A stretch of DNA of 64,000 bases, taken from Zygnema cylindricum. Taxonomy: Eukaryota; Streptophyta; Zygnematophyceae; Zygnematales; Zygnemataceae. The notes under the pieces are model-generated. The model saw only the letters and a program-made list of their open reading frames with translations, ran no database searches and was not told the origin of the DNA. The translations under genes were made by a program, and so were the position numbers. This document shows positions 27,267-47,938 of the stretch, piece after piece (the stretch's first letter is position 1; the number at the start of each line of letters is the position of its first letter). Where the stretch lies: positions 245,948-309,947 of the forward strand of contig JBBHKE010000395.1 of assembly GCA_037447655.1 (NCBI GenBank), written 5' to 3'.

Positions 27267-27271
27267 TAAGT

Positions 27272-28535
27272 TGTTGTTTTTGAAGATTTAGTTTTGTGCA
27301 TACGTGAAATTTGGTGCGCACGGGACGTTTCGTGCGTATATATTTCACTTGATGTACTGTGGAGTTTTGAACAGATTTGCGATTCGGGGGAGCTAGTGTA
27401 CAAGTGAAATTAATGTGACGTAAGGAAAAAAATTGAATGGTGCGGAGTGCGCTCGGAAATGAACGGTAGATCGCGAAGCGATCAGACATGAAATGTTTGA
27501 CATATTTAAATTGTACGCCGGCCGTACGGAACCTAATGTTACGGGCGACAATTATGGAAAGTACGCCATGGTACATAGAATCTATTTTGGACTGGTGTAT
27601 TATTAAGTGTACTTTATTTGCGACGCATTTATCAAAAATGACGTGAACCTTATATGCGACAAGGCGCATTTATGACGAAGTACGCGGTTACGGTACGGGC
27701 AATATTTAGATGGTACCGTATCGTTTCGACAGTGGATTGTGTTGTACTTTGAGGCGTCCGCCGGTTTTTGATGATTCACACTATTTTGAGGACATGAAAT
27801 CAAATTGAATTCTACATATGTGATGACGACTTGTTGTATGCGAATTAATGATTTAATGTTGATTAAACTAGTTTATATTTTACGTGATCAATTAGGGTTT
27901 CGACAGTTTAATTTATGTGTCTTTATGTGTCGTATTTGCAGACAAGTGTACGCTTACGATTGCTTGACTTTCAGGTGTACGCTTACGATTAATTTATTCT
28001 TAGTGATGGTCTATTATGGTTAAATAGGACTTGATGACAGTTACGTAATGTATGTTGGTTATTTTGACACTTAGTGATTCGTTGACAGCTCACAAGTGTA
28101 TATATAGGAATGAGCTTTGTTAGGAAAAATAATCAATGCTGGTTAGAAAAGTAGGGACCAAAGATGTAGTATTTTAGGGTTGTCGATTAGGTCATGCACT
28201 TTGAATGATATAATGATTATTTGATTATACTTTTGTTTATGTGTGATGCATTTGTTTGTTATTATTTATTTATGTTATTTTATATATGTTTGATATGCTT
28301 TGTTTATACATTTGTCCTAGGGTTTGTTTATGTCGATTATTCCATCAAACCTTAGATGTTGTCATAGGGTTTATTTATGTTAATTATTCCATGAAACCCT
28401 AACTGTTGTTTGTTGCGTCTGTGTACGCATATAGAGGATGCATTTCAAATGATTATTCATTGGCCTAGCTTTGCTTAGCTTCTTGCATGATAGTTTGGGT
28501 TGCTTCTGCGGTCTATTTTAGACCAAAGAACAACA
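27272..28535 (+). repeat. Solo LTR of the TRG type in M2
   Basis: A 1264-bp LTR starting TGTTGTTTTTGAAG and ending AAGAACAACA with perfect TSD taagt (27267-27271 and 28536-28540) and no internal region, so a product of LTR-LTR recombination. It keeps the agatcgcgaagcgatc hairpin (27472-27487). Removing it restores the M2 frame (EPQTYLEAIN). The right half (27800-28500) is AT-rich and longer than in TRG1/TRG2. Confidence 0.88.
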
Positions 28536-28540
28536 TAAGT

Positions 28541-29827
28541 ATGTCTGAGGTTCATTTGTAAGTTGGTTATTTACTTGTCTTTCTTGAAGTCGTTTGCTAC
28601 TTCTTCTTCCCCATTCAAAATCGGAAGATGGTATGGAAGGCATCTTTGGGCTTCGTTTAGGAATATTTTCAGCTCCCCTATCTTCCAATTCCGGTGTCTC
28701 ATCAAAATCCTCATTCGTTTCCACTTCGTTTTGTGGCGTTGCCTCGGATATTGTCATTTCCTCCTCCTTTGGTAGATCTGCAAATTTTCCTTTTTCTCCA
28801 TCTTCATTCTCTTCATTTTCAAAGTCAAAGTCAGAAAACTGATCCGTTTCAAATCTGATTTTGACTTCCTTATTAAATTTGAATGGATCAATGGATTCAC
28901 TTCATTCATCACCACTATGTGTTTTACCAAAAATATATCTCTCTTTTTCAAGTCATACACCCGGTATCCTTTTGTGCTCTCATCATATCCTACAAGATAT
29001 CCTGGTTTCCCTCTTCCCTCTAACTTCCATTTTGTCTTATCGGAATTCAAACCATAAACTTGACTTCCGAACACTCTCAAACTAGACAAATCAGGCTTCC
29101 TTCCTGTCCACCTCTCATACAGAGTTTCCTCCTTATTTGCTGAAGTTAGGAATCTATTTTTGATGAAATTAGCATAGTTCATAGACTCAGCCCAAAACTG
29201 CAACCCTATCCCCTTGTCACTTAACATACTTCTGGACATATCTCCTAAAGTTCTATTCACTCTTTTTGCTACTCCATTTTGTTCCGGATTATGGGGAAAA
29301 GTTTTCTCATGATGATTTCCTTCTTCTTTAAGATTTTCTTCAAATTCCCTTGAGGTGTATTCTTTTCCATTATCACTTCTTATCTCTTTTATTGAGGTTT
29401 CATGCTGCTTTTCACTCCATACTTTATACTCTTTGAAACATCTTAATACCTTTGACTTATGTCTGAGAAAGTATACCTTCGTGTATCTAGACCAATCATT
29501 TGTGATGGTTAACATCCATCTCTTCCCCCCATGTGAAGCATACGTAGCAGGTCCCCAAACATCAGTGTGAACTAGATCTAATACTTTCTCTCTCCTAAAT
29601 GTGGTTGCCTTTGGAAATGGAAGTCTATGAATCTTCCCTTGGGCACATCCACTACAATCATCAAAGGTCTCATCATCCTCAAAAGTAATACCCTCCACTA
29701 TTCCTTTTTTCTTCATTTTCTTTAATCTATCTAGATGCACATGCCCCAACCTTTTATGCCAAAGCATCATCTCACTTGCACACGAGTAGAGAACACTCTT
29801 TTCATTGCAAAGAACAATTTTGAACAT
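28541..29827 (-). pseudogene. M2 integrase
   Basis: Frame 28754-29827 (357 codons) carries a complete-looking integrase: WHKRLGHVHLDRL and CSGCAQGK (HHCC zinc domain), HTDVWGP, RSDNGKEYTS and NPEQNGVAKR (D, D, E), then YERWTGRKPDLSSLRVFGSQVY. Frame 28518-28757 adds the acidic linker before RT. It ends in a shift at about 28756. Confidence 0.86.
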
Positions 29828-29830
29828 TCC

Positions 29831-31085
29831 TTAACTACCCTTCTCAGCTATGAAATAAACCTCATTATCAAAGCTTGCTGTGAAGATTCCTTTCCTAATT
29901 CCTGTTTCAAACTCCTTTTCATCTACGACAGCTGTTGAGACTACGTTCTTGCTATGCTGTGGAATGTAAAGAACATCTGAGAGTGTTACAATTGAGGCCT
30001 CTCCATCAACTAGAACCTTCAAGTCAACAGTTCCAACAAGACTTCTGGTCTCTACTCTACCATCTCCGTACTCTATCTAGACTGTTGGGATCTTTCTCAG
30101 TTTAGTGAACCACCGCTTATCTATTTGCACATATGCATTGAAGCCCCTTAGTATATGATCTACCCATCCTCGGGTGGATCCCTCTTACCTCCGAAAGCAC
30201 ACTTTTGTCTCCATGGAATGTCAACATGCTTTTCAGTGTTTTTTGGATTAAGAAGAAGCTCCTCAAGCTCCTCTTCTGGTGCAGTTTTTTCTTCCACTTC
30301 CTCATCATGAACTTGAGTCAGGAAAGCATTTTTCTTTCCTCCATCCCTTGAGGTTCCTTGACCATCTTTCAGTCAAAGTTTTGCAAGTTTGACACAATCT
30401 GCCATATATTGTCCTGGTTCTTGCAGAAGTGACATAATCCTCCGCGAGAAGTTCCTCTCCCCTGTCTATCAAATCAGCCACCTCCTTGTCGTCTTCCACC
30501 AAAGTTTCGATAGGGATCTTTCCCTTTCTCCTCATCACGCTTCCGCCAATCAGATCCTGCAAACAATGCTTGAACACTTAGACTCCCTCTCCTTAGCTCT
30601 ATGTTGCTTTCTTTCACTAAAATCATTCCCACTATGTCATCCCAATTTTAATTGCTATCTCCTATATCCTGCAAACGGTTAATGATAATCTCATACTCTT
30701 CAGGTAGTTTCATCATTAATGTGTTCACTCTTTGTCTCTTGGACCATGAGTAACCTGCACTCTCTAACTCTCCAAATAATAATCCTAAATCATTGCAATA
30801 ATTATTCATATTTCCTCCTTTATAAGTATAAGTTGCAATCTTATTTTCAGCCAACTGTTGTTACTACAATGGTCCACTCTTATATTTGTTAACTAGTGAT
30901 ACCCAAATCTGAGATTAAGATTTGACATGCATAAGGGGAATGGCAATGCCCTTTGCTACACTTTTAAGAATTAAGAGCTTAGCAACCTTGTCTTTGTAGT
31001 TCCACTTTTTATACTCTGATCTTTCGGTCTGAACCCTTGTCCCGTTGCTGGTGGTGCTGCTGCCGGTATAGCCTTCGGCAATGGT
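29831..31085 (-). pseudogene. M2 gag and protease (broken)
   Basis: 29831-30022 is the protease-integrase linker (LVDGEASIVTLSDVLYIPQ). The protease active-site region near 30120-30180 is scrambled (MHICAN readable). 30305-30577 and 30648-30854 are gag: a zinc knuckle CHFCK...YMADC near 30385-30450 with a 1-nt loss, YTYKGGNMNNYCNDLGLLF, LPEEYEIIINRLQDI. 30915-31085 is the start of the conserved gag core (WNYKDKVAKLLI). N-terminal end deleted. Confidence 0.75.
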
Positions 31086-31094
31086 GTCACTTGA

Positions 31095-31134
31095 GTTGCA
31101 AAAAGATAAAATTAGAATAGAAAATAATGGGAGT
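31095..31134 (+). pseudogene. P1 3' remnant with PPT
   Basis: tgcaaaaagataaaatta recalls the last codons of copia RNase H in this lineage, and aataatgggag is a PPT directly before the 3' LTR. Everything between the RT break at 24796 and here is lost. Confidence 0.6.
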
Positions 31135-31339
31135 GTTGCAATCACTAGTTTTTTGGTATTTTCTAGGTCTAAATAGATTAGCGGAAAAAGATAAGAAAGC
31201 CTGCTTCCGTCTCTTCTCTCTTGCCCTCATACTTGTTCTAGTCACTGAAGGAGAGAGAGAGAGTGATGGAGCCATGGCTGCCTCATCTCCATAGGTAGGA
31301 CTAAAGAGTGACTTAAGTCACTCTTAACAAAAGGTTGCG

Positions 31340-31400
31340 TCCGGTAGGACTCGAACCTCTATTCGGCAAAGCTCGGAGTAGCCGTTAGCTCTAACCAATC
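31340..31400 (-). repeat. tRNA-like sequence, antisense in P1 3' LTR
   Basis: B-box GGTTCGAGTCC on the minus strand (31347-31357) with A-box-like TAGAGCTAACGGCTA about 25 bp upstream in that reading. Confidence 0.6.
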
Positions 31401-31868
31401 TGTCGTAGAAGCCTGTTAGGATACAAAGGGTTTGATATCTATTTAAACTTGTGTACGGTCCTACAATCGATTAACAAAAATATGAACGAAGTAACCTAAA
31501 ACTAGTTAAAATTTAGTGCGGACGTCATTTCACACGAAACAAATGAATCAGACATTTGTTTCGACGGCTAAAATTCAAAGTCAGATTTAATCCAACAGCA
31601 TACATCGCTGCCGGGATCCCGGAATGGTCACTTTGGCGAATATGGACATGGCATGACCTGGCGCCACGTGGACAGATAACATTTGGTCGTAGGAATTCTG
31701 GGGAGCGTACGGACGAATGAAAGGTTGACACGCGTCCACACAACGGCCTTGTCTTACACAGGCCGTACAGAAAGAACATCGACCGTAGTACCTTTCTGTA
31801 CTTTACAGTTATGTGATTGGGTCGTACATTAGTAGATAGGGGTTGTGAGAGGGAAGTAGGACTTAACA

Positions 31869-32192
31869 TATTACCGGCGGCGTCCCAATTAATAAATGTC
31901 GTCAGTCGCATTATGTTTCGTACGTGCAACGTACAATTTTACAATTTTACATATTTCGAATATCATACATCGGATCGCTTCGCGATACGCCGTCCATTTC
32001 ACTTACGCGAACTGTACTCTTACATATGTTTGTTCGGGTCACTCAATTAGTACTCATGTACGTTGAACTTCAATTAATTTCAGTTCTCCCCCAATCCGAA
32101 AATCCATTCGTACCACCACATTAATTTCGGTAATTACTTACGCACGCAATCACGCGCACGCAAGTACGAAACTGAATCTTCCAAAACAACAT
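31869..32192 (-). repeat. TRG-type LTR fragment
   Basis: Contains catcggatcgcttcgcgata, gccgtccatttcac, ctcccccaatccgaaaatcc and ends ttccaaaacaaca, as in TRG LTR starts on the minus strand. The left half is missing. A shared tatt at both junctions may be the remains of a target duplication. Confidence 0.7.
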
Positions 32193-32378
32193 ATTTTAGA
32201 CGGTCACCTCTCCTTTGGGAGCTTTTTATAAGTTGGCATATTTGCCACCTCATAGCTTATCGGCTGGTTGGCTGTTTTTAGTGATTCTTTTTGCTACGGA
32301 CTCAGAGGAGTCCAGGCTGCACAAGGTTGCAGTTAGACTGTTAATTTGCTGTATTCGGCAGCAGTGGTTGTGGCTTAG

Positions 32379-33868
32379 AACCAGAACTACTGCCAACAGG
32401 TCGAGCATGACTCACCCGGAGATAATAATCCAACAACAGAGCCAACAACTGGCCGCAATGGCAGCAAAATTGGCCGCCCTGCGATTAGGATCCCCCTCCC
32501 GTACTCGTGCTCTCACGGCCGCTCTGAAACTCCACCGGAGAAACTAAGAGTTACTACAGAAGCTGGCGGAGCTTGAACAGGAATTTGCGGCGGGCGAAGA
32601 CGATGACGATGTAATGGGGTGGGGCATGGAACCTCCTAAAGCGCAACACGCACAAACCTTCCTTTCGGGAGCGTGGAATGTCGGTGTGGGAGACAATCGC
32701 AAGCAGCTTCGTAACTCAACATCAGCGCAGAGAAGAGACAAGCAAAGACTGGCTCAAGGAGACCACAACAGGAAGACCACTGGACCTTTGTCTTTCACCC
32801 CCAAGGCAGTCATTCTGAACGACAAAATAGGTCTCACAATCTAACCCACAAACCTGCCTCCTCCGGCTGTGAAGAAATTGCCTCGCGGATTCGAGAATTA
32901 CAAGACAACTAAACCAAGGGAGATGGAAAAACAAGCAAAGGTGGAGGAAAAACAGATAAACGAAGACTGGTTTGAAAAATATTTGGCGGAACGCCGGGAG
33001 GATATCACACCAGAAACGCCCCCAGAGCCGGAATGCGACGAGGAAAGTGAGGAAACACGGGGAGGAGGAGCAAGAAAAATTGGATGAACGAACAGATTCC
33101 CCTTTTTCGTCGCCAAAAACTCAACCTCGTTCCTCCAAACCAGCAAAGATGTTAGTAAGGCATCTAATGCCCTACGCCCTCACTCACGTGAAAACATTGG
33201 CCTCTTCCCATAACTTGCCGGAAGAAATTCTCATCCAGGCCCTCGGAGAGGAGATTCACTCAGAAGGGGAGAAAAGAGACCTCGCAGATCAGGCCAGATC
33301 CGTCTTTTGGTCAATAGACCGAAAGCCCCCTATAATGGATAAGGATTATAAGACGTTATTTGTAACCGGACGGGAAATTTCAAACTCAACGGAAACGGCT
33401 GATATCAGGATGCAATGGTCGATATATGAGCACTCCCAAATCTAATTACCACTTCGGCTCTACAGCAAATGCATGAGGAACTCCGATCGGAAATCTGCCC
33501 GAATAACATCAGCCTAAGCACGACTAGTAGTGGGAGGGAGCCGGTCCACGAAATTATCAAGGCCATGTTAATCGAGTTCTCCGATGACGCGGGTCAGAAG
33601 GTCCGAATTTAGTTTCCCTTCTTGGTGGTGGAAGGCAAACAGTTTGAAATTTTGTTGGGGATGGCCACCAGGACAAGGTTGAATATGGGATTAAGTTTGT
33701 GGAAGGAGCAGTTTAGTGTTCGTGATCTTGAGGATCTGGAAGGGGTCAAGGTGGTGGTACCCCTCGATTTATGGAATCAGGGGAAAAACAATGCTCCTAT
33801 AGCCAGATGTTTTCCTATTTATGCCACCCACACTCCAACAGAGCTGCTTGCCATCGCTACCGACATCG
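32379..33868 (+). pseudogene. Retroelement gag-like region and retropepsin (methyltransferase-bearing element, part 1)
   Basis: Not copia. The first 700 bp encode a charged Q/A/K/E-rich region (IIIQQQSQQLAAMAAKLAAL; PAVKKLPRGFENY). From about 33380 a retropepsin is readable: a VD-x-x-A active site at 33418-33432 where two of the three D-T-G codons are altered (ATA, then TGA), followed in frame by LPNLITTSAL, a stop near 33610, then FPFLVVEGKQFEILLGM, the family's second conserved ILLG strand (33645-33662). Four to six stops or shifts. It was cut at 33868 by H1 and continues at 42243. No RT is present, so the superfamily is open; the protease is closer to Ty3-like ones. Confidence 0.7.
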
Positions 33869-33873
33869 CTGAC

Positions 33874-35037
33874 TGAAACTCTGTGTGCTCCATTGCCCAC
33901 AGAATTTGCAGATCCAAAAGAAGCTTATCTCGATAGTGCCAACTCCAAGTTGATATAAACCCAAATGACCAACCACTTGACAATCATAGACACATTATAG
34001 CTTAACCCTTTTGAAATAAGACTTTCTATGTGCTCAATTCCACCACAGAATGCAAAGTTAGAATATGAGTTTTGGACACATTCACCCAAATTGACTTTCC
34101 CCTAGAAATGTAGCCACCTTGGCAGGCAAAAACTCTGACCGGCTTCATCTCTTTGTAGCTTGGACTCCCCTGAGTCGGCAGCAAAAAGAATCACTGAAAA
34201 TGGTCAAGTAAATTGATAGTTATCGTTGCTTAAAGTTAGCCTTTTATACAAGGTGCTCTCTCACAGAGGCGACTACCTACCAAAAATATTCTAAGTCCTA
34301 TTCCCTCTCTAAAACTCTATCTACTAACGTACGGCACCAATCAAATTACTGTGTCATACAGAAAAGTACAGGTGCTGGTATACTTTCTGTACGGCCATCG
34401 TACAACATGGCCAAAATGTCGACACATGTTACATTCGGATTTGTTCCTGTAATCTCCGAAGTTGCCGCGATTTAATGTCATTGTGCCACGTGTCATCCTA
34501 TGTGGCGACGACCGCAAACCGCCTAGATCCTCTTCCGCGATCTCGGCATCCTTTTCGGCCGTCCGATCGAAACTAGATTTCAATCGTAGCCTTCATAATT
34601 ACTTGCGCGGTATTTGTTTCGCTATCGAAACAAAGCGTGCGGTATTCGTTTTTTCTCCGTACTCTATATAACTGGATATATGCATCCCGAATAAATTTTC
34701 AGTTGAATGAATTAGTCTACGTGTAAGTCTATATATAATTATCGAACCCTATATCATCTAACACTAGTCTTAGACTAAACGGATAAAGCTAACGTCTAGT
34801 TTAACGGACGACAGGTACGTGGATCGGATCATGGGTCCGTCAAGATTCATTTTAAAAAACCCAACCACTATCTACTCTTGTCTCTTTGGAGAGCTTAGGC
34901 AGCCATGGCTCTAGCTCCCTTTTGAGCCTTCAGTGAGTAGAACAAGTGTGGGGGCTTAGAGAAGGGAGTTAGAGGCAGGCTGCCTCTGCTCATTTTCCTA
35001 TTCTAATAAAGACCTAGAAAATACTCAAATATCAACA
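33874..35037 (-). repeat. H1 3' LTR
   Basis: 1164 bp, TGTTGATATTTGAG (35037) to ...CAGAGTTTCA (33874). PPT TAAGGGGAG adjoins at 35038-35046. Confidence 0.9.
34765..34850 (+). repeat. tRNA-like sequence, antisense in H1 3' LTR
   Basis: tagactaaacggataaagct resembles an A-box region; ggatcggatca (34821-34831) is a weakened B-box; the copy in the 5' LTR reads ggatcgaatca, closer to consensus. Confidence 0.5.
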
Positions 35038-35071
35038 CTCCCCTTATTTTCTAGTTTATTTCCTTTCAATT

Positions 35072-35344
35072 TTACAAACAAATAAACAAACATTCTCTTC
35101 CCCTTTTTCTTTTTCCTTTCCTTTTCCTTTCATAAAACTTTAAGACAACATTCTCATATTTAAAAATTTCCATTAAATTAGCTGACTTAAAAATTCCATC
35201 TTGCTGGTCATACATTTTATTTAGGATCCCACTTTTCATAAATCTGAGCAAAGACAATATCCACCTCAAATCTTTTCCATTCACACAAAAACCAATTTCC
35301 CTCTTACAATTCACCCAGCCAGCCCCATCTCCAATATGCAACAC
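35072..35344 (-). pseudogene. H1 RNase H relic
   Basis: A 90-codon open frame that follows the copia RNase H region position by position (LHIGDGAGWVNCKREIGF against the usual LxxGDGACCWSSKQQKV; then LRWILSLLRFMKSGI, MYDQQDGIF, KFYERKRKGKRKRG) while the catalytic words TMEAEYMA, CDN and HMDIRLSF are gone. The end is very basic. It is open despite heavy divergence, so it may have been kept as a short tail rather than as an enzyme. Confidence 0.6.
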
Positions 35345-35349
35345 ACACC

Positions 35350-35847
35350 CAGATGTTAACCTTTTTACGAGTACAACTTCATAGATGACATCACTCCCAT
35401 TAGGGATGTCAAAACCATTACCCCCGAATTTATCCTTAAATCAAGAGTCCCCACTAAGTTCCTCATAAAATCTACATCTTTCGAACTCATATTTCTATTC
35501 ATGACGATTACCCCAATTTTTGAACTTTCCTCACTCTCTCCCATGGAATTCTTTCCACTATCACTTTCTAATTTTTATCACAATAAATATTTCTCCTCCC
35601 CTAAACCTTTCATTAAATATTCCTCTTCTCTCCTATCTTTTAAAACCCCCTATATAGTTATTTCTCCCCTTTCCTCGGAATTCGTTGAAGTCTCCCTTTT
35701 CGACCAGTTTTTTGTTTGTAGATTATCTACGAAACTATCCTCAATATTTTGAACTCCCTCAAGTATCTCCTCTCTCTTTACTTCCCTTATACCTCCAAAA
35801 GCACACTGTTGTTTCCGTGGAATTTCTGTGTGCTTTTCTCTCTTCCC
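35350..35847 (-). pseudogene. H1 gag tail and RT relic
   Basis: Corresponds to 52957-53400 in M4. It encodes a charged Glu/Ser-rich tail after the gag core and, near 35400-35620, a degenerate equivalent of the LLGIKIESDSGK and MSTEDVDLM words seen in M4, derived from the RT-RNase H join. Interrupted at 35847 by TRG2. Confidence 0.5.
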
Positions 35848-36910
35848 TGTTGTTCATAGCCCATTTTCAGCCATGAATGTACCCTCGGAAGCACCACAGA
35901 CTACCCCAAAACAGCCTCCCTTGATTCCACTCAGAATTCTACAGAATAACCAAACCAAGCTAAAACTACACAACCAGATAGTTCCTAGTCCACTAAGTAT
36001 TCCCACCAAATTTCATATAATAATACCAAACCGAATAATCACAACACTCAGTCAAAGTTGCAGAAAAACAGCCTGCCAGAACTTTGATAAATATGACCAA
36101 CTTCACAATGAAGCCCCAAGAAAACCAGACACACAATAGGTCTGCAAATTCGCCACAATATTGCCAATACAAAGAGGAACCCACATGCAAAATGTCATAT
36201 AATTCTGCCAATAAAATTGAGAGCAATTCTCAGATGAAAATCCCAAAAAGGAGCAGAAACAGTTTCTGTCCAAAAAGTTCCTAAGTCTAGAAATGAGTCA
36301 GTCCTACAAATATACACTACAGCTTACTACAAACTGTACGGAGGCATACCAGCCGTACGTAATCAATCAACTACCTCTATTAATGTGAGTGTACCTAAGA
36401 TCTACACTAATAATTAAATACACAGGACAAAACATTGTTAAATATTTACACGTTGTACGAATTCCGTCAAACGAATCAGGACCGTCAAAAATAAATATCA
36501 TGTGATGGACGCGATTTTGCGTCCCTCACCAAAATGACGACGCTGCCGTCCATAGCTCTGGGGGCGTCCAATTCATCACATGTTGACCGCCGCATTATGT
36601 TTCGTACGGCCGGCGTACAATTTAAATCATTTCGAATGTTAATCATCGGATCGCTTCGCGATCCGCCGTCCATTTCTCCAACACATTCAACACTTTCGTC
36701 TATGTTTCTTCGCGTCACTTGAAGTCCAATTCTGTACGTTCAATACTCTTAGTACCTAGTATGCAAGCTGCTATGGCTGCGATGTGACCAGCGCAGCATG
36801 GCAGCACAATATCTTTTTCATACATGCTGCTATGTCTGCGGTGTGACCAGCGCAGCATGGCAGCATAGCAATGTGATATAGAGAGGACTAAAGGTTTCCA
36901 AAAACCAACA
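35848..36910 (-). repeat. TRG2 3' LTR
   Basis: 1063 bp. Contains the ggatcgcttcgcgatcc hairpin (36647-36663) and two 40-bp tandem units at 36767 and 36826 (gctgctatggctgcgatgtg and its variant), which can form hairpins with agcgcagcatggcagca. Confidence 0.9.
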
Positions 36911-37099
36911 CTCCCACAAACCTTTAGACTCTCTCAGCCACTAAGTCCACATTCTTCTACCATTACTCCCCCCGATTCGCAGATCCATTCGAACCTCCAC
37001 AGTAAATCAAGATAGCATTAGAATCTTATACTGTACCCACGAAACATTTTGTACGCACGAAACGACACGCCCTCACGAAACTGACTTTTCAAAACAACA
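36911..37099 (-). repeat. Relic of an older LTR start inside TRG2
   Basis: Between the working PPT (ctcccacaaacc, 36911) and a second PPT (ctcccccgaaaa, 37100) sits 189 bp that matches the first part of the TRG1 LTR: ttcgaacctccacagtaaat, acgaaactgacttttcaaaacaaca at its end. Thus an old PPT plus U3 start now lies internally. Confidence 0.7.
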
Positions 37100-37517
37100 C
37101 TCCCCCGAAAATTTAGTTTCGTGCATCTGGAATGAAATATGCCGCGTGTTAAAAATAACTGTACCTTTCCGTACCTGCAAATTTCCTCCCTTTTTCCCTT
37201 TTGATCAAACGTCACCACTGCTTCCGCTGCGCTGCGTTGTTGCGTTGCGACGCGAACTGCTTTTGCCGATTCACCACTGCTCCAGCTGCGTTACTGCTCC
37301 AGCTGCGTTACTGCTCCAACTGCGTTACTGCTCCAGCTTCTTTCTTCCATTTCTTCCAAAAATGCGTCCTCTCCAGAAACCATTGCTACCGTTGCCTCTT
37401 CTTGAGTCTTTCAAAAAAAAATAAACTTTCTTTTCAACTAATTTAAAGAAAAACAAAATGCAAAATTCGAAATTTTACATATATTACTGGATTTTAATGG
37501 TAGTCACCTCCGTAAAC

Positions 37518-38975
37518 TTACTTTTCACGCCGTCTTCTTTTAACCACTTTCGGAACATGTTTTCTTCTACTAGTGATCTTTTGAGTCCTGCCTGTTTTCT
37601 TTGTTTTCTTAATGAATTTTTGTGATTTATGTAAGTTTACATCTTTGTCACCGTTTTCTACCCTTTTAATGTCATGAATTCTAATTCCTGCCTTTTTCTT
37701 CACTAAACTCTTCTTCCAGGTTTCTTTTCCTATTTTTCCAATTTTTGCAGTTTTATTTCGTTTTCCAAAATTACAAACTCCCTCTCTTACCCCAATAATC
37801 TGAACATTTTTCCTCTCATCTTCTCTAAGGTCATTAAATTCCACATTCACATTATTTTTCTGTTCCACTATCACTTCCTCATCTTTTCCTCCCACTCCTT
37901 TTACTTCACTTAACTCTCCCTCTTGTAAGCATTTTTCACTCACCAATCTGTCACCAGAAAAAGTTTCAAAAACTGCGTCCTTTTCTGTCTCCTTTTCCTC
38001 CACACCATCTTCGGTGACAATTATTTTTCCCCCTCTGTCCTCGTTCTCCATACTTCTAAAAATGACGTTCGACAAATAAACAAATTTCTCGAAAGAAGGT
38101 GTAACCCTTTTATCTTCACAATATTTCCTCGGATCAGTAAACGCATTCTGTTGCCTTTGTATAGGGGGCTGAACTCGGTTGTTGTCCCACCCTTCTCTGA
38201 AATTTCTTGTGAGACATGCACTTTTATATAGCGGACATACCCTGAAAGTATGCCCTACATCATTACAGTAAAAACAGTTTTCTACCTGACAACTTTTCTT
38301 ATTTCTTTGAAACTGTGATCTAACACCTTGACAACTCTCCCTATTCTTTAAAGCCTCATTATTAGCCTCTTCCTCTAAAACACACCTGATTGCTAAAAGT
38401 AAGTTCCAATCCTTTTTATCAACCTGTCTTAATCTATCCAAAGCACACCTATATTCCTTTGGTAATCCTTTCATTAACAGGAAAGCCTTTTGAGCATTCG
38501 TGAAGTTTCCTCCTGCAATTTCATTTTCTGCAAACAGTATTTGTATCCCAATACAATAATTCAACATACTACCTCCATCATACTTGTACTCAATTATTTT
38601 TGTAACATTACTCATCCAGTGATACACAGAAGTCTTTTGATATGCAAGTTCTAAACACTTCCATAATTCAACTGCACTTTCTAAACCAAGGTAATTCATT
38701 ACAAGTTCCTCGTTCAAGGATAGCTTGATAGTCAGCATACACTCATTGTTCTTCTCCTCCCATCCAACCGATGATTCAACACACATCCCGTCCACCACAT
38801 CCATTAGCTTCCTCGACTTGAAGTAGCTCTCCATCATACTCCTCCAATAGTAATATTTAGAACCATCAAATATGGGCAGGGTTGATTCCTCCAAAATGGG
38901 TAGCCATGGGCGTGGGCCCATAACCTGTTGTTCATAGCCCATTTTCAGCCATGAATGTACCCTCGGAAGCACCAC
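37518..38975 (-). CDS. TRG2 Gag, intact, with lysine-rich tail
   Basis: 485 codons without a break, the best preserved gene here. The first ATG (38975) is in the 5' LTR, 50 bp before its end; a second ATG at 38942 is also possible. Residues 18-24 (VMGPRPW) are encoded by the PBS. The gag core (about 35-215) has FDGSKYYYWRSMM, LWKCLELAYQKTSVYHW and LLMKGLPKEYRCALDRL; a CCHC zinc knuckle follows (C234, C237, H242, C247: CFYCNDVGHTFRVC). From about 330 the protein is charged, and residues 405-485 are strongly Lys/Arg-rich, ending RRRREK. The tail replaces Pol and may bind RNA or act as a nuclear signal (inference). Role: particle protein, with enzymes supplied in trans. Confidence 0.88.
   Translation of the reverse strand: MVLPRVHSWLKMGYEQQVMGPRPWLPILEESTLPIFDGSKYYYWRSMMESYFKSRKLMDVVDGMCVESSVGWEEKNNECMLTIKLSLNEELVMNYLGLESAVELWKCLELAYQKTSVYHWMSNVTKIIEYKYDGGSMLNYCIGIQILFAENEIAGGNFTNAQKAFLLMKGLPKEYRCALDRLRQVDKKDWNLLLAIRCVLEEEANNEALKNRESCQGVRSQFQRNKKSCQVENCFYCNDVGHTFRVCPLYKSACLTRNFREGWDNNRVQPPIQRQQNAFTDPRKYCEDKRVTPSFEKFVYLSNVIFRSMENEDRGGKIIVTEDGVEEKETEKDAVFETFSGDRLVSEKCLQEGELSEVKGVGGKDEEVIVEQKNNVNVEFNDLREDERKNVQIIGVREGVCNFGKRNKTAKIGKIGKETWKKSLVKKKAGIRIHDIKRVENGDKDVNLHKSQKFIKKTKKTGRTQKITSRRKHVPKVVKRRRREK
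38911..38925 (-). other. TRG2 PBS
   Basis: Minus-strand GGTTATGGGCCCACG abuts the LTR; one base differs from the common form at its far end. Confidence 0.8.
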
Positions 38976-39986
38976 AGACTACCCCAAAACAGCCTCCCTT
39001 GATTCCACTCAGAATTCTACAGAATAACCAAACCAAGCTAAAACTACACAACCAGATAGTTCCTAGTCCACTAAGTATTCCCACCAAATTTCATATAATA
39101 ATACCAAACCGAATAATCACAACACTCAGTCAAAGTTGCAGAAAAACAGCCTGCCAGAACTTTGATAAATATGACCAACTTCACAATGAAGCCCCAAGAA
39201 AACCAGACACACAATAGGTCTGCAAATTCGCCACAATATTGCCAATACAAAGAGGAACCCACATGCAAAATGTCATATAATTCTGCCGATAAAATTGAGA
39301 GCAATTCTCAGATGAAAATCCCAAAAAGGAGTAGAAATAGTTTCTGTCCAAAAAGTTCCTAAGTCTAGAAATGACTAAGTCCTACAAATATATACTACAG
39401 CTTACTACTAACTGTACGGAGGCATACCAGCCGTACGTAATCAATCGACTACCTCTATTAATGTGAGTGTACCTGAGAGCTACAGTAATAATTAATACAC
39501 GGGACAAACATTGTTAAATATTTACAAGTCTTACGAATTCCGTCAAACGAATCAGGACCGTCCAAAATAAATATCATGTGATGGACGCGATTTCGCGTCC
39601 CTCACCAAACTGACGGCGCTGCCGTCCGTAGCTCCGGTGGCGTCCAATTCATCACATGTTGACCGCCGCATTATGTTTCGTACGGCCGGCGTACAATTTA
39701 AATCATTTCGAATGTTAATCATCGGATCGCTTCGCGATCCGCCGTCCATTTCTCCAACACATTCAACACTTTCGTCTATGTTTCTTCGCGTCACTTGAAG
39801 TCCAATTCCGTACGTTCAATACTCTTAGTACTTAGTATGCAAGCTGCTATGGCTGCGATGTGACCAGCGCAGCATGGCAGCACAATATCTTTTTCATACA
39901 TGCTGCTATGTCTGCGGTGTGACCAGCGCAGCATGGCAGCATAGCAATGTGATATAGAGAGGACTAAAGGTTTCCAAAAACCATCA
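38926..39986 (-). repeat. TRG2 5' LTR
   Basis: 1061 bp, same hairpin and 40-bp tandem units as the 3' LTR. The terminal base pair set reads TGATGG at the start where the 3' LTR reads TGTTGG. Confidence 0.9.
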
Positions 39987-39991
39987 TTCCC

Positions 39992-41097
39992 CATACTACC
40001 AATGTGGAGAAGCTCCAACATATCTTTATCCTCTTTCTGCTTTTCCCCTTCTTCCTCCTCATCTACATTCCAACTTCTAAGTTTTTCCAAACAAGGGCAT
40101 TCCTCTAAATAATGACCCGGTTCCCAACAAAAGAAGCAAACCCCCTTTTTCAAAGCTCTCGTTTCTTTTCCTCTCCCTCTCTTTCTACTAAAGTTCCGAT
40201 AAGGTTTACCTTTGTCTTTCTTCCTCTCTTCACGTACCGTTCGTCACCGCTGTTCCTCTCATCACGCTTCCGCCAATCACCACCAGCTGTAAATGCATTC
40301 ACTCTGTCACTTCCTCTATGAAGATCCAAAGCGCTTTCCCTCACAAGAATTTTCCCCATGGTAAAGCTCCAAGTCCATGAGGAGCCATCCATTGCCTGCA
40401 TACGACAAATGATGTTTTCGTACTCATCTGAGTGTTTCATAAGTATTGTATTAATCTTCCGCTCCTCAGATTCTACAAATCCCGCACTATCAAGCTCAAC
40501 ATATAGTGCAGCAATATCATTGCAAAACTCTATCATGCTACCGCCTTTATAAACATAGGCATCTATTTCTTGTTTTACTAATTGCTGCCTCTGAATAGTC
40601 TCACTCTTATAAATTTGACTTAATGCTTCCCATATCTCTGAAGACTTCGTTGAGTTTATAAGAGTGATAGCTATGCACTTAGACACGTTTCTAAGTATGA
40701 GATGCTTTGCTATAGTGTTTTTGTATTCCCATATTTTTCTGTCATTTTCTTCAGTTTTAATCCCTACAAGTGGAACCATAGTTGAGAGCTTAGCTCCCCT
40801 CACCATCGTTGTTCCTTTTCCCTTCTCCTATTTGTCCCCTTCCATGGCAATGATTTTCCCTTCACCTTCCTTTGCATCTAAACTCCGGTTGATTTTTTTG
40901 GGCGCCCAAGATGATTCTCCATAGTGAGTTTCTCCAAAGCCCGGTGGAGGACATCTCACTTGTCCCGAAACACTTCCCCATATGTGCTTCTCGAAAAAGA
41001 ATCCCTCCATCATAAATCCCCAATAAAAGAAGCCTGTTCCATCAAACATAGGCACCCTAGATGGTGGGCCTATAAATTGAAACTTTGTGTGCTCCAT
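39992..41097 (-). pseudogene. H1 gag
   Basis: Starts MEHTKFQFIGPPSRVPMFDG (ATG 41097 in the LTR; an in-frame ATG also lies at 41121). Frames 40828-41121 and 40150-40806 are in phase, separated by one TAG near 40828, and a shift near 40150 leads to 39791-40153. Core words: NTIAKHLILRNVSKCIAITL, SETIQRQQLVKQEIDAYVYKGGSM, MKHSDEYENIICRMQ; zinc knuckle CFFCWEPGHYLEEC. Well preserved for a non-autonomous element; only one stop and one shift before the TRG2 break. Confidence 0.82.
41063..41077 (-). other. H1 PBS, decayed
   Basis: Minus-strand ATTTATAGGCCCACC, three mismatches from GGTTATGGGCCCACC, next to the 5' LTR. Confidence 0.7.
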
Positions 41098-42242
41098 TGC
41101 CCACAGAAATCGCAGATCCAAAAGAAGCTTATCTAGATAGTGCCGCCTCTATGTTGATATAAACCCAAATGACTAACCCCTTCACAGTCAAAGACCCATT
41201 ATAACTTCACCCCGGTGAAATAAGACTTTGTGTGTGCTCAGTTCCACCACAGAATGCAAAGTTAGAATATGAGTTTTGGACACATTCACCCACTTTGAAT
41301 TTCCCTTATAAATGCAGCCACCCTGGCAGGAAAAAACTCTGACCGACTACACCCCTATGTAGCATGGACTCCCTTGAGTCCGCAGCAAAAAAAATCACTG
41401 AAAATGGTCAAGTAAATTGATAGTTATGGCTGCCCAAAGTTAGCGTGTTATACAAGGTGCTCTTTCACAGAGGCGACTACTCACCACAAATATTCTAAGT
41501 CCTATTTCCTCTCTAAAACTCTATCTACTGACGTACGGTACCAATCAAATTACTCTGTCGTACAGAAAAGTATAGGTGCCCTTATACTTTCTGTACGGCC
41601 ATCGTACGACATGGCTAAAATGTCGACACATGTTATATCCGGATTTGTTCCTGTAATCTCCGAAGTTGCCGCGATCCAATGTCATTGTGCCACGTGTCAT
41701 CCTATGTGGCGCCGACCGCAAACCGCCTAGATCCTCTTCCGCGATCTCGGCATCCTTTCCGGCCGTCCGATCGAAACTAGATTTCAATCGTAGCCTTCAT
41801 AATTACTTGCGCGGTATTTCTTTCGCTATCGAAACAAAGCGTGCGGTATTCGTTTTTTCTCCGTACTCTATATAACTGGATCTATGCATCCCGAATAAAG
41901 TTTCAGTTGAATGAATTAGTCTACGTGTAAGTCTATATATAATTATGGAACCCTATATCATCTAACACTAGTCTTAGACTAAACGGATAAAGCTAACGTC
42001 TAGTTTAACGGATGGCAGGTACGTGGATCGAATCATGGGTCCGTCAAGATTCATTTTAATAAAACCTACCACTATCTACTTCCTGTCTTTTTGGAGAGGT
42101 TAGGCAGCCATGGCTCTAGCTCCCTTTCCATCCTTCAGTGACTACAACAAGTGAGGGGGCTTAGAGAAGGGAGTTAGAGGCAGGCTGCCTCTGCTTTTTT
42201 TCCTATCCTAATAAAGACCTATAAAATACTCAAATATGAACA
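41078..42242 (-). repeat. H1 5' LTR
   Basis: 1165 bp; starts TGTTCATATTTGAG (42242). Both LTRs share the gtacggccatcgtac and ccacgtgtcatcctatgtgg blocks. Confidence 0.9.
41972..42060 (+). repeat. tRNA-like sequence, antisense in H1 5' LTR
   Basis: Same as 34765-34850 with B-box-like ggatcgaatca at 42025-42035 and tagactaaacggataaagct upstream. Confidence 0.5.
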
Positions 42243-42963
42243 CTGACGTGATATAGCAATTCCGTATTTCTAAGCGGTGGGAAGAGGGATACCAAAGCAG
42301 ATTATCACAGATAACCACACTTCGGCGGGAAGTGGACCAGTCCTTTGCAGTGTTTTTGGCAAAGAGAAAATGCCTCGGTCGCAATCTTTGGAGGTTCCGC
42401 TTTAGTATCAAAAATTCCATCGACAAGTGGTGTAATTATCAATTTCGGATTCCGGACTCCGGATATTATCCTTATTTTCTGGAATTAGCTCGGACCTAGA
42501 AGCGGTCTTGAAAGCATGATATAACGTGGAATCTTATGTGGCCGTGGAAATATCCCCCGATACTCGGGCAGTCACTGAACACCGACTAGAACACCTCCAC
42601 CAATTGTGTCCCCAGCAACTTCCAATATCCGCCATATGCACATCTCACCGAAGCCTTCCCCAAAATGTAGACAATATCTTGAAACCCCATTTAGCCATGC
42701 TGGAGAGAGTAGATCTGGTAATAGCCGGATGGCCATATCAAGGATACTCCGCAGCAAGGAAAGGCGTGGGACATCAGGACAGCCAAAGTCGAACCTTCTT
42801 CTAGAAGATCAAATTAATTTCTTGGCTCCAACATTCCGAAGACACATCAGTGGGTTACGTTTTGGAAAATGTTCACCCGGGAGATGATAAAAGAAAACAG
42901 GTCGCCAAGTGTTGGAATCAAGTTAAGCAGATTCTAGGGGCTCCACTCGTTTTTGATGCAGCG
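42243..42963 (+). pseudogene. DNA cytosine C5-methyltransferase domain (methyltransferase-bearing element, part 2)
   Basis: Resumes the element cut at 33868. After a roughly 75-codon linker and one shift, a C5-methyltransferase is read in one frame from about 42463: motif I LSLFSGI (42469-42486), a TGA at 42517, then VAVEIS (motif II), VDLVIAGWPYQGYS (motif IV; the catalytic Cys of P-C-Q is Tyr, 42736-42738), a TAG at 42802, GYVLENV (motif VI, ENV at 42865-42873) and DAA (42955-42963, start of motif VIII). The target-recognition region and motifs IX-X are cut off by the LTR at 42964. Two stops and the lost Cys make it inactive. It sits directly downstream of the retropepsin, so protease-methyltransferase order is seen in sequence. 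Confidence 0.85.
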
Positions 42964-43991
42964 TGTAGAAATTAAAGGTTATTTTAGTATTTTCTAGGTT
43001 TTGTAAAATGCAGAAAAAGAAGCAGAGGCAGCCTACCTCTAACTCCTCTCTCTAGCTCCCACACTTGTCGCAGTCATTGAAAGTTGGAGAGGGAGATAGA
43101 GCCATGGCCGCCTATGCTATCCCGACGGGGACAGATATTAGGTTGTTAAATTTTACCAAAATGAACTTGGCGGACACATGATTTGAACTTGGTACCTGCC
43201 GTCCGTCAAGGCAGCCGGTAGCTGGTAGCCTTAGCCATCTAGTCTAAACCAGAGATATATGATATAGGGTTTGGTAGTTATTTAAATGTTAACACGTAGG
43301 CTATTTCATTCAACGGGATATTTAGACATAGATACAGTTTGTTATTTACGGTGTACGGAAAATCCGAAACGGATATCGCGCATTTTGTTTCGAAGGCGAA
43401 ACAAATATCGCGCAAGTATTTATGACGTCCACGATTGTAATCCGGCTTAATCGGACGGCCACGAAGCATGTCGAGATCGCAGAATCGGTTTTCGGCGTTT
43501 TGGGGACAACCTCAAATCAATCGCCACGTGGCGCAATCACATTGGATTATAGCATCTCCGGGGATTCCTGGAACGAATCGAAAATTGACATGTGTCGACT
43601 TGTTGGCCATATCGTACATATAGAAAAGTACACCGACACCTGTACCTTTATCTACGATACACTATTATGATTGGTGTCGTACTTTAGTAGATAGAGTTTT
43701 AGAGAGAGAAAGGACTTAGAAAACTTTTATAAATTGGACCCTCTCTCCGAATGAGCTTCTGTACAAAAGGTCAACTTTGACCCTTCATAACTTACTGCTC
43801 AGGGGAGAAAATTTAGAGATTCTTTTTGCTATCGACTTAGGGGAGTCTTGCCTTCACGAAGTAAAGGTGGCCAGAGTTTTTGTTTGCCAAGGTGGCAGTT
43901 ATTCTTGGTGAAATACAAAGGGGTCAGGGATATCCTAGAGGCTTCGTGTGAGCTGCCTACTCTGAGGTCCTATGGAGGTCTCAGAGATGCA
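42964..43991 (+). repeat. P2 5' LTR
   Basis: 1028 bp, TGTAGAAATTAAAGG to ...GAGATGCA, directly followed by a perfect PBS. Same family, opposite orientation to the LTR at 46912-47938. Confidence 0.88.
43175..43255 (-). repeat. tRNA-like sequence, antisense in P2 LTR
   Basis: Minus strand: tagatggctaaggctac as A-box region and AAGTTCAAATC (43180-43190) as a slightly degenerate B-box. Confidence 0.55.
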
Positions 43992-44528
43992 GGTTATGGG
44001 CCCACCATCTAGGGTGCCCATATTCAATTGAGTTGGCTTCATATATTGGGAAAGTATGATGACACGAGCTCTATGTGAGAAACGATTTTAGGGAATAGTG
44101 AGTGGACGGGTGGGTCGTCCATCCAGTCTTGGGATACCTCCAGGGTTTACAGGAGGCAGATCCATCTTCAACGGAGGAGACAAAGGAAAGAGAGGTGGTG
44201 GACAAAGGAAAGGAAAAGGAGACGGTCACACCAATAGCAACCGGTTCGGCATTCATGTCACATATTCCGAGGAACGAGGAGAATGATATCGATATGTGGG
44301 ACTACAACAATATGGCGGCTAAGCACTTCATCCTCCGCCATCTTACTCAAGGGCTTGCATCTCCCCATTTGCAGGTAGAGAGGGCATCCGATCTTTGGGT
44401 GGCTCTCATAGAAATGTACCGAAGTGGTACGATTCAGCAACAATAGTTGGCTGATCAGAAAATTAAGGAGTATGTATACAAAATGGAGAAGATGTTGGAT
44501 TTTTGCAATGAGCTTGCTACACTTTTTC
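43972..44528 (+). pseudogene. P2 gag, 5' part only
   Basis: MEVSEMQVMGPPSRVPIFN then a stop; PBS at 43992-44006. Frame 44102-44446 has the PIATGSAFMSHIPRNEENDI linker, NNMAAKHFILRHLTQGLASPHLQ and IEMYRSGTIQQQ, then a TAG, KEYVYKMEKMLDFCNELATLF and an abrupt end where another LTR begins. Rest of the element is absent. Confidence 0.78.
43992..44006 (+). other. P2 PBS, perfect
   Basis: GGTTATGGGCCCACC abuts the LTR and is read as VMGPP in gag. Confidence 0.85.
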
Positions 44529-44544
44529 ATATATGCTACCATCT

Positions 44545-45437
44545 TGAACCATTGTAGTCATTGAAAGAGAGAGAGGGCGGTGGAGCCATGGCTGCCTCAG
44601 CTCTATAGGGAGGACTTAAGCGTGACCAAAGTCACTCTTAACAAAAAGGTTGAGTCCGACACGACTCGAACCTCCGACCGGTTGAGCGAGGCGTAGCCGT
44701 TAGCTCTTACCGGTTTGTCATAGTAGTCCGTTGGGATATAAAGGGTTTGATAGCCATTTAAACCTTAATTAGATCATTATTTCAATTAACGAAATAACAA
44801 ATTGAGGACATAGAAACTAGTTGAGATTTGAGTGCGTACACACAAATGTAACAGACATTTGTTATTTTGGACAGCGAGCAATAAAACATGGTTTGGATCT
44901 GACGACCCCTCATCATCGCCGAGATCCCGGAATGGCCGCCTTAGCCGATTTCGGACATGACATGACTTGTCGACACGTGGCAAGATATCATTGGGAAGAG
45001 GGAATCTAAGGGAGCATGAGGACAAGTTCGGAGGAGACAGACGTCTGCTCCATGGTTTTGTCGTACACAGGCCATACAGAAAGTACATCAACCCTAGTAC
45101 CTTTGTATACTGTACAGTTTTTTGATTGGTTCGTACATCAGTAGATTGGGGTTGTGAGAGAGGTTAAGGACTTAGAGGATTGAGGAGGTAGCCGCCTCTC
45201 TTCGAACAAGCCTGTATAAATATTAGCATCTTTGCCACTCCATAATTAATCGCCTAGTTGGGCGTTTTCAGAGACTCTTCTTGCTGTGTACCCAAGGGAG
45301 TCCATACTGCACAATGGTGCAATCTTATTGTCTATTTTTTTGCTTGGGTAGCCGCAGTCCTAGTTGAAAGTGGGTTAGTCAGAAGCTATCTAGAGGTTTC
45401 CTAAATTTTAAAGTCCAATGGGGGACACAGAATTACA
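44545..45437 (+). repeat. LTR fragment of P1 type (start missing)
   Basis: Matches the P1 LTR from about its 130th base (gtagtcattgaaagagagag, gccatggctgcctcagctc) to the end (gtccaatgggggacacagaattaca). No PBS follows, so it is a 3' LTR or a truncated solo LTR joined to P2 gag on the left and pol on the right. Confidence 0.75.
44655..44735 (-). repeat. tRNA-like sequence, antisense in LTR fragment
   Basis: B-box GGTTCGAGTCG on the minus strand (44662-44672) and A-box-like TAAGAGCTAACGG near 44695-44707. Confidence 0.6.
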
Positions 45438-46911
45438 CTTTTACCCTCAGAAACATCAATCTTATGTCCATATGCTTAGCTTTGAAATGATATTTAAGAT
45501 AAGCTACAATTGCAATGGCAGCTTGATTATCACAAAACACTTCATGCACTCCCTCCTTCATATACCCCAGTTCTTGCAACAAGGACTTGACCCACATCAA
45601 TTCTTTCACAGCAGAACAAGAGGCCATGTACTTAGCCTCCATAGTAGATTTAGCCACCACCTTTTGTTGCTTACTGCTCCAACTGCAAGCACCTCCCCCC
45701 ACATACAACACATACCCAGAAGTGCATCTTCTCATAAGTGCTTCTTCATAATTGACATCACTCCACGTAGTGATAACAGTGTGCTCCCCTCCCAAATGCA
45801 ATCATAACTCTTTGGTTCCCACCACATATCTTATGACTCTTTTGGCTACCTCCCAGTCTCTCTTCCTAGGAACATTAAGACTCCTACTAAGTACTCCAAC
45901 AGTTGCCGATATGTCCGGCCTGGTATAGTTCATAAAATAGATCAAACTTCTTACGACCTGTCTTTAAGGAAAAGACTTCATAAACTCTCTTTCCTCTAGA
46001 CTCATCTGATCGCCTAAGATCATCACTCATCCTTCTACACTCCCATCACTTACTTTTTTCAAGTCCATGGGAGTGGTACAACTATTAACCTTTTCCATCT
46101 AGAATTTCTCAAGCATATTACCTATTGTTTTTTTTCTGAGTAAGTCTAATAATCCTTTTCCCCCTATGTCTCTCCATTTGGATCCCCAAAATGTATCTTG
46201 CCTCACCTAAATCCTTCATATCAAATCTGCTTTTAAGATTCTTTATTAGCCTATTAATCTTTTCCAAAGATTTACTCAACATAAGCAGATCATCCACATA
46301 AATACTAATAAAAATGACACCATCCTCATCTTCAAACATATAGATAAAATGACCAGAGCTGATCCGGATATATCCCAGACCGGTGAGAAACTCATATAGT
46401 TTCTTGTTCTATTATCGAGGAGCCTGCTTCAGTCCATATAAAGACTTTATGAGCCTGCAGACTTTGCTCTCTTCTCTTTCTTCCACAAATCCCTCTAGTT
46501 GCCTCATGAAAATTTCTTCCTCTAACTCACCATTAAGAAAAGCAGTCTTAACATACATCTGGTGTATTTCCATGTCTTTCGCTGCTGCGAGACTGAGGAG
46601 AATCCTTACTAATGGGAATCGAACAACCGGATCAAAAGTCTCCTCATAGTCAATCCCCTCCTTTTCGGTAAATCCCTTTGCTACCAATCAAGCCTTATAT
46701 CTCTCAATAGTATTATTTGGGTTTAGTTTTAGTTAAAACATCTATTTATAGCCAATCGTTTTTTTGTCCGGAGGACAGTCCGCTAGTTCCCAAGTATATG
46801 CTTCCATGATAGAGGCCATCTCATCATTTATGGCTCTAATCCATCTGTCTTTCTCCTGACTGTTTACTACCTCTGAGTATGAATGAGGCTCATCTGGGTG
46901 AGATAGCTTAT
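45438..46911 (-). pseudogene. Copia RT and RNase H fragment
   Basis: Minus strand. RNase H frame 45433-45801 with WSDVNYEEA, TMEAKYMA, CDNQAAIA and HMDIRL, cut at its end by the LTR fragment. RT frame 46118-46339 has YVDD (46289-46300) and DLGEARYILGIQ; 46412-46687 has FLNGELEEEIFMRQLEGF and SLYGLKQAPR. Upstream it reaches the integrase-RT linker (SHPDEPHSYSE) and is cut at 46911 by an LTR. Many stops. Confidence 0.8.
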
Positions 46912-47938
46912 TGCAACTCTAAGACCTCCTTAGGACCTTAGAGTAGGCAACTCACACGAAGCCTCTAAGATAACCCTGACCCCTTTGTATTTCAGCAATA
47001 ATAACTGCCACCCTGGGAGACAAAAACTCTGACTACCTTCACCCCTCTGAAAAGAAGACTCCCTTGAGTCATTAGCAAAAAGAATTTACTCCCCTGAGCA
47101 GTAAGTTATGAATGGTCAAAGTTGACATTTTGTACAGAAGCTCACTGGGATAGAGGTTCCAATCTATATAATTTTTCTAAGTCCTATCTCTCTCTAAAAC
47201 TCTATCTACTGAAGTACGGCACCAATCATAATAGTGTATCGTACATAAAGGTAAAGGTGCCGGTGTACTTTGTGTACGGCCATTGTACGACATGGCCAAT
47301 AAGTCGACACATGTCATTTTTGGATTCGTTCCTGGAATCCTCGTAGATGCTGTAATCAAATGTGATTGCGCCACGTGGCGATTGATGTGACGTCGTCCGC
47401 AAACCGCCGAAAACCCATTCCGCGATCTCGGCATGCTTCGTGGCCGTCCGATTAAGCCGGATTACTATCGTGGTCGTCATAAATACTAACACAATATTTG
47501 TTTCGCCTTCCAAACAAAATGCGCGATATTCGTTTCAAATTTTCCGTACGCCGTACATTACAAACTGTATCTATGTCGAAATATCTCGTTGAATGAAATA
47601 GCCTACTTTTTAACATTTAAATAACTACCAAACCATATATCGTATATCTCTTCTTTAGACTAGATAGTCAAGGCTACCGGCTAGCGACTGCCTTAAAGGA
47701 CGGCAGGTACCAGGTTCAAATCTTGGGTCTGCCAAGTTCATTTTGGTAAAATCTACCAACCTAATATATGTCCCCGTCGGGATAGCATAGGCGGCCATGG
47801 CTCTATCTCCCTCTCCAACTTTTGAGTGACTATGACAAGTGTGGGAGCTAGAGAGAGGAGTAAGAGGCAGGTTGCCTCTGCTTCTTTTCTGCATTTTACA
47901 AAACCTACAAAATACTAAAAGAACCTTTTATTTCTACA
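46912..47938 (-). repeat. LTR without partner, P2 family
   Basis: 1027 bp, TGTAGAAATAAAAGG (47938) to ...GAGTTGCA (46912). Neither flank shows a matching target duplication (cttat against atgag) and gag/pol fragments adjoin directly, so it is a solo or recombined LTR. Confidence 0.75.
47655..47740 (+). repeat. tRNA-like sequence, antisense in LTR
   Basis: tagactagatagtcaaggct, then ggttcaaatct (47713-47723) within accaggttcaaatcttggg. Confidence 0.6.

Follow-up and report, generated by a model that had tools for sequence, protein, structure and literature searches.

A degenerate retroelement fragment lies in a 64,000-nucleotide stretch of the Zygnema cylindricum genome (assembly GCA_037447655.1, contig JBBHKE010000395.1); this whole stretch is called the window below, and coordinates without a locus name refer to it. 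The fragment is old, occupies bp 32377–33868 and 42248–42963, and is divided by a long terminal repeat (LTR) element, here named H1, at 33874–42242. Its protein identity to other loci of the same genome and its position in a tree with them place it, almost certainly, as a dead copy of a Ty3/Gypsy-type family whose Pol polyprotein has the order protease, DNMT3-like methyltransferase, reverse transcriptase (RT), with a PHD finger after the integrase. The features of the region are as follows (names beginning with L denote relatives fetched from elsewhere in the genome):

31134–32376, plus strand: truncated LTR-like repeat outside the element, a copy of 11298–12225 with an insert of ∼320 bases (self-BLAST, junction read)
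32377–33384, plus strand: gag-protease spacer with stops and frame changes; in tblastn 73% identical in amino acids to L012 and 53–57% to L034, L037 and L038
33385–33868, plus strand: remnant of a retropepsin-like aspartic protease and its C-terminal tail, recognized through relatives (active-site region at 33412, ILLGM at 33649–33663)
33869–33873, plus strand: left target site duplication, CTGAC
33874–42242, minus strand: H1, a later insertion of a Copia-type LTR element (gag PF14223), with a nested LTR element at 35846–39991
42243–42247, plus strand: right target site duplication, CTGAC
42248–42444, plus strand: protease-methyltransferase linker, whose first part aligns to 22 of the 40 fetched loci (16 distinct)
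42254–42262, plus strand: in-frame stop and its 3′ context, TAG CAA TTC, a candidate programmed readthrough site
42445–42963, plus strand: N-terminal 173 codons of a DNMT3-like C5-methyltransferase with motifs I to VIII-like, two stops and the catalytic Cys replaced by Tyr, ending at 42963
42964–43991, plus strand: LTR that truncates the methyltransferase, starting TGTAGAAATT, with an inverted relative at 46912–47938

H1 has LTRs at 33874–35039 and 41078–42244 that are 92.2% identical (self-BLAST), has TG...CA termini, and is flanked on both sides by CTGAC. When the empty site is reconstructed (45 bases of left flank joined to 90 of right), a single frame, with one TAG inside it, connects the protease tail with the linker, so the two halves were one before H1 inserted, as an earlier note made from the sequence of the window had proposed. 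That note also took this copy to be dead, and it does contain stops and has lost the catalytic cysteine and both ends, with a truncated LTR-like repeat abutting at 32376 and another LTR beginning at 42964. BLAST found no second copy of the fragment within the window, and a Pfam search of the plus-strand frames of 21300–31133 and 42960–62790 found no further element parts, the only matches there being Copia-type and integrase domains. The CpG observed/expected ratio of the fragment (0.79–0.80) is unremarkable beside that of the window (0.73), and thus carries no signal of methylation decay. The right piece has terminal inverted repeats on either side, which looked like those of a gene-capturing DNA transposon; this reading was rejected, as the repeats are a pair of related LTRs facing opposite ways.

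The methyltransferase domain

In the right piece, motifs I (42466), IV (42727), VI (∼42861) and a VIII-like DAA (42955–42963) share one frame, which is interrupted by two stops, and the catalytic Cys of motif IV is a Tyr. With X placed at the two stops, 42445–42966 matches TIGR00675 at E = 5.7e-8 (residues 8–144), bearing out the claim of a C5-methyltransferase with that substitution, and PF00145 matches the same piece at E = 6.5e-4, which is under its curated cut-off. The stop-free 94-residue part still matches TIGR00675 (E = 3.8e-4); on its own it had no methyltransferase match among solved structures, nor did the other five frames of the right piece have a methyltransferase match. Among solved structures, the whole right piece matches best DNMT3C (E = 6.5e-4), DNMT3A and DNMT3B. 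The domain of relative L025 matches DNMT3A at E = 1.9e-14, compared with 4.9e-5 for HhaI and 1.9e-3 for DRM2, and that of relative L021 matches DNMT3A at E = 1.4e-10. By this comparison the enzyme is predicted to be DNMT3-like, and clearly so in the relatives. Domains rearranged methyltransferases (DRM) have motifs VI–X ahead of I–V. Here the order is unrearranged: in the window as in its relatives motif I comes before IV and VI, and in the window VIII is last. DRM was rejected on that ground.

Searches of protein databases with the window methyltransferase piece returned no relative, and none was found among viral and prokaryote contigs. Single-sequence AlphaFold models of the two pieces were of low confidence (pLDDT 36 and 34), and Foldseek returned nothing for them at E ≤ 0.001.

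Relatives in the genome and domain order

The genome searched comprises 352,776,454 bases in 2,689 contigs. A PF00145 profile search of the contigs gave at least 123 scored matches among 782 candidates, and the window methyltransferase piece used as query gave at least 150 scored relatives among 1,314 candidates, all at E ≤ 1.8e-67 and, the piece itself aside, 63–81% identical to it. Twenty short loci and twenty stretches of 10 kb were fetched, nine of the latter spanning a short locus already in the set, which leaves 31 distinct loci; ten flanking stretches were fetched as well. The window piece aligns to 39 of these 40 (the exception is L007). The distinct loci fall into clade A (18 loci, 46–81% identical to the window) and clade B (12 loci, 35–39%), which are separated in a 28-row tree with support 100/100; the window groups with L012 (98/93) inside clade A, and L010, L017 and L032 were too short to be included. 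Many copies carry additional stops. The catalytic cysteine that the window copy has lost is retained by every one of the 30 distinct loci aligned, in a sample drawn from the best PF00145 scores that favours kept motifs. Over aligned methyltransferase codons dN/dS is 0.04–0.36 (Nei-Gojobori, for pairs with computable dS, the others being saturated or identical). For the window and L012 dS is 0.57 and dN 0.096, so the bulk of their divergence arose under constraint.

The protease of the window copy is recognizable mainly through these relatives. No library scanned gave a retropepsin HMM match in the window copy, and 32377–33870 has no Pfam match of any kind. A retropepsin signature (7 of 10 positions) with LLG 60–105 residues further on occurs at one place in the 64 kb, where 0.375 is expected, and in 0 of 300 simulated copies of the fragment. 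The window protease region is 77% identical in amino acids to L012 and 69% to L025, the protease open reading frame (ORF) of L025 matches Asp_protease_2 (E = 2.1e-4, slightly under the curated cut-off), and of the 16 clade A loci that can be read there, 12 have DTGA, which is absent from L012, L017, L003 and L011 as well as from the window. On these three grounds the left piece is read as a retropepsin remnant. The retropepsin of the earlier note is thus upheld, and the gag-like region that it placed in front is not: L034 has a CX2CX4HX4C (CCHC) knuckle, read by eye, at the end of its gag part, and the position of this gag upstream makes 32377–33384 a spacer between gag and protease. L034 also has an in-frame TGA inside its gag region (L034:8695–8697, minus strand) that is not common to L025.

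Longer relatives, which had been expected, are present in the same genome as copies with open frames of 1,520–2,395 codons. The order in better-kept copies is gag with CCHC, aspartic protease, DNMT3, Ty3/Gypsy RT, RNase H, DDE integrase and PHD finger. In clade A, L025:4417–8976 (1,520 codons) and L024:4454–9028 (1,525 codons) include the methyltransferase, RVT_1, RNase H, H2C2, rve and a terminal PHD finger. In clade B, a single open frame of L021, 2,395 codons long, contains CCHC, Asp_protease_2, methyltransferase, RVT_1, RNase H, integrase and PHD. All five loci scanned with Pfam (L021, L024, L025, L030 and L032) have RVT_1 and RNase H, which makes the RT type Ty3/Gypsy. H2C2 and rve are present in the first four, and the open frame of L032 ends sooner (methyltransferase, RVT_1 and RNase H only). 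The PHD finger is clear in clade B (above cut-off in L021, E = 1.5e-9) and weak in clade A; in L030 it matches at E = 3.5e-10.

A conserved stop codon between protease and methyltransferase

The earlier note had the methyltransferase following the protease directly. The order is correct; the two are separated by a linker that contains, in this clade, a conserved in-frame stop. Across this site the window encodes ...D V I stop Q F R I S K R W. The position is readable in 17 of the 18 clade A loci (L010 is unreadable there) and all 17 have a stop, which is TAG in 16 and TAA in L017. The next six bases are CAATTC in 14 of the 17 (CAATTG in L032, TAATTC in L009 and GAAATC in L017). When L006 is compared with L003, L011 and L018, the codons TAG, CAA and TTC are the sole run of three identical codons among 37, and most of their neighbours differ. 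A genome-wide pattern in which the stop codon was left free matched 367 places versus 1 in a reversed control, and a hand count of the best 100 of these 367 gave TAG in 92, TAA in 3 and a sense codon differing from TAG by one base in 5; because its downstream bases are fixed, the pattern tests the codon and not its context, and its reach is limited to the near group of clade A.

The frame beyond the stop is constrained. Between L025 and L024, dS is 0.150 and dN 0.022, a dN/dS of 0.15 over 1,520 codons, with 0.17 for the linker and methyltransferase and 0.09 for RT and RNase H. Purifying selection on Pol behind a fixed stop means that the lineage must bypass the stop. Clade A has a conserved stop, a conserved 3′ context and a constrained frame beyond it, as is expected of readthrough sites, and programmed readthrough appears to be the simplest way past the stop and probably the one used.

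Well-known cases of readthrough resemble this arrangement in part. The leaky context of tobacco mosaic virus (TMV) is UAG CAR YYA with a core of UAG CAA UU, and clade A likewise has UAG followed by CAA UU; murine leukaemia virus makes its gag-pol by readthrough, although in clade A it is DNMT3 that lies directly behind the stop.

Rather less probably, the identity of the element holds and the TAG is bypassed by other means, either because the DNMT3-Pol part has its own start (by reinitiation or an internal start) or because the stop is spliced out. The evidence base here is genomic DNA, and the stop context differs from the exact TMV consensus, both of which leave room for such a bypass. However, no change of frame occurs across the stop, and TAG CAA TTC is kept as a block amid varying codons, a block that reinitiation would not need. 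It is very unlikely that the TAG arose long ago as a disabling mutation and was passed down within a dead subfamily: many copies do have further stops, but the dN/dS of 0.15 over the 1,520 codons after the stop, together with the sharing of the stop by loci only ∼50% identical to the window in methyltransferase protein, indicates that the lineage went on translating Pol after it gained the stop. A genetic code in which TAG has become a sense codon was also considered and rejected, since the open frames of 1,520 to 2,395 codons contain no TAG.

Terminal repeats and integration

The ends of the family are best seen in clade B. In L021 one copy of a 931-base repeat, A, occupies 15–945 and a second, 100% identical, starts at 9482; a 243-base repeat, b, flanks this second A on both sides (copies 99.6% identical), giving the order A-coding-b-A-b. 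The same order is found in L028 (A 1,474 and b 192 bases) and L026 (A ∼1,388 and b 190 bases), in which the repeats are 99–100% identical. Such near identity of the clade B repeats indicates recent copies. The repeats of L034, a clade A locus, fit this order in a decayed state (A copies 82%, b 95% identical). These split A/b repeats stand in place of the simple identical LTRs at both ends of ordinary Ty3/Gypsy elements. All three mapped clade B elements (L021, L028 and L026) have 4-base target duplications, TTGG, AGGG and CCTT, read by eye, and TG...CA ends. The elements thus have the split repeats of DIRS elements together with 4-base duplications, the integration scar of a DDE integrase.

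The A-coding-b-A-b order could be taken to mean that the element is a DIRS element, which integrates by a tyrosine recombinase and leaves no target duplication. This is highly improbable, as H2C2 and rve integrase domains were found, no phage-integrase match occurs among the eight scanned ORFs, and the duplications and TG...CA ends are present in three of three elements. Finally, it is scarcely credible that the window piece is a host DNMT3 pseudogene beside an unrelated protease, for although the window copy taken alone lacks RT and integrase, the protease, linker and methyltransferase align jointly in many loci, Gypsy RT follows the methyltransferase in open frames, and plant DNMT3 genes are described as carrying DUF3444 (PMC6453930), while 32377–33870 has no Pfam match. 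Nor did the scanned loci give any sign of the host gene that would have overturned the earlier identification; their open frames carry retroelement domains (no search for introns was made).

Comparison with known methyltransferase-carrying elements

The closest described counterpart is KnitGypsy-Dnmt3 of Klebsormidium nitens, in which a DNMT3 lies in the Pol of a Gypsy element with DIRS-like repeats and is under purifying selection (de Mendoza et al. 2018, PMC5890265). By its description it resembles the Z. cylindricum family in the DNMT3 within a Gypsy-type Pol, the DIRS-like repeat order, the kept key residues and the purifying selection; it is also described as intronless (PMC5890265). The family here occupies hundreds of places in 353 Mb, and K. 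nitens is reported to have fewer copies than Symbiodinium (PMC5890265). It further has the conserved TAG (in one clade), the PHD finger after the integrase and the 4-base duplications, on which the available KnitGypsy text is silent (PMC5890265). SymbioDIRS-Dnmt3 likewise has a DNMT3 in Pol and split repeats, and its methyltransferase methylates CG de novo in yeast; it differs in having a DIRS RT and a tyrosine recombinase, whereas a Gypsy RT and a DDE integrase are present here (PMC5890265).

DNMT3 has also been reported in LTR Copia and DIRS elements in a 2025 paper (PMC12344493), and tracheophytes are described as being without methylase-coding transposons (Morozov et al. 2019, PMC6338049). 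Streptophyte DNMT3 proteins are reported to carry DUF3444 (Yaari et al. 2019, PMC6453930), which was not found here. The portions available of PMC10538959 and PMC9998398 contain nothing on DNMT-carrying elements, and in the literature text available neither a stop separating protease from DNMT nor a PHD finger is mentioned, though no search was aimed at either. The DNMT3-carrying Gypsy kind is thus already known, and, as far as these partial texts go, the leaky stop and the PHD finger may be new.

Possible role of the methyltransferase

Retrotransposons with a captured DNMT3, an enzyme of the class by which they are themselves silenced, are in print from dinoflagellates and a charophyte (PMC5890265). 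A tentative proposal, to which we give slightly less than an even chance, is that the leaky UAG CAA UUC rations the captured DNMT3, and that the packaged fusion protein writes methylation on the cDNA while its PHD finger reads chromatin. Ribosomes would mostly halt at the TAG, making Gag-protease the main product, and occasional readthrough would yield a Gag-protease-DNMT3-RT-RNase H-integrase-PHD fusion, by which DNMT3 would be packaged into the particle at the low level of RT. There it could methylate the freshly made cDNA at its cytosines ahead of integration, marking the DNA as "self" or setting the chromatin state of the landing site; that methylation of cDNA is the role of the enzyme is about as probable as that it is not. 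The PHD finger might read a histone mark and so aim the integrase, helping to choose or hold the insertion site.

Several observations weigh against the proposal or the family description on which it is built. L021, with its single open frame in clade B, lacks such a stop, so readthrough is not required by all members. Where TMV has A as the last base of the stop context, clade A has C (G in L032), and L009 and L017 deviate as well. Among the fetched clade A copies none has gag, protease and Pol all open, and L012, the nearest fetched relative of the window copy, lacks the protease Asp. The PHD matches of L025 and L024 (E = 4.4e-3 and 2.4e-4) are both under the Pfam cut-off, and the CCHC and Asp_protease_2 matches of L021 (E = 8.6e-3 and 0.012) are also below theirs. 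The universal retention of the catalytic cysteine is to be read with the choice of high-scoring loci in mind, and the KnitGypsy methyltransferase showed no activity in yeast, a result called inconclusive there (PMC5890265).

The two clades occupy hundreds of places, B with near-identical repeats and a clear PHD finger and A with an apparent dosage switch, and the genome makes DNMT3 dosage, particle packaging and the methylation of new insertions directly testable. If the proposal were true, a mobile element would have its own write-and-read epigenetic kit at hundreds of places in one genome.

Neighbouring Copia-type elements

The gag of H1 lies on the minus strand (PF14223, E = 6.6e-15 for 40150–40827), and its frame remains open on that strand through 40828–41148, running from within the LTR past its border with no untranslated leader. 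The LTR element nested in H1 (35846–39991) has LTRs at 35846–36915 and 38924–39991 that are 97.4% identical, and no clear target duplication was seen in its examined flanks. The usual TGGTATCAGAGC site is not enriched in the window. Of the sequence GGTTATGGGCCCACC, on the other hand, the window contains 10 occurrences when up to 3 mismatches are allowed, versus 0.79 expected, among them 12296, 22747 (minus strand), 43992, 55656 and 59346, and it adjoins Copia LTRs at 43992 and 38911, the places that were inspected. We take it to be the complement of the anticodon arm of a plant-type initiator tRNA, which would fit priming by a half-molecule and makes a host of the green lineage likely; the Drosophila copia element is primed by a half-tRNA.

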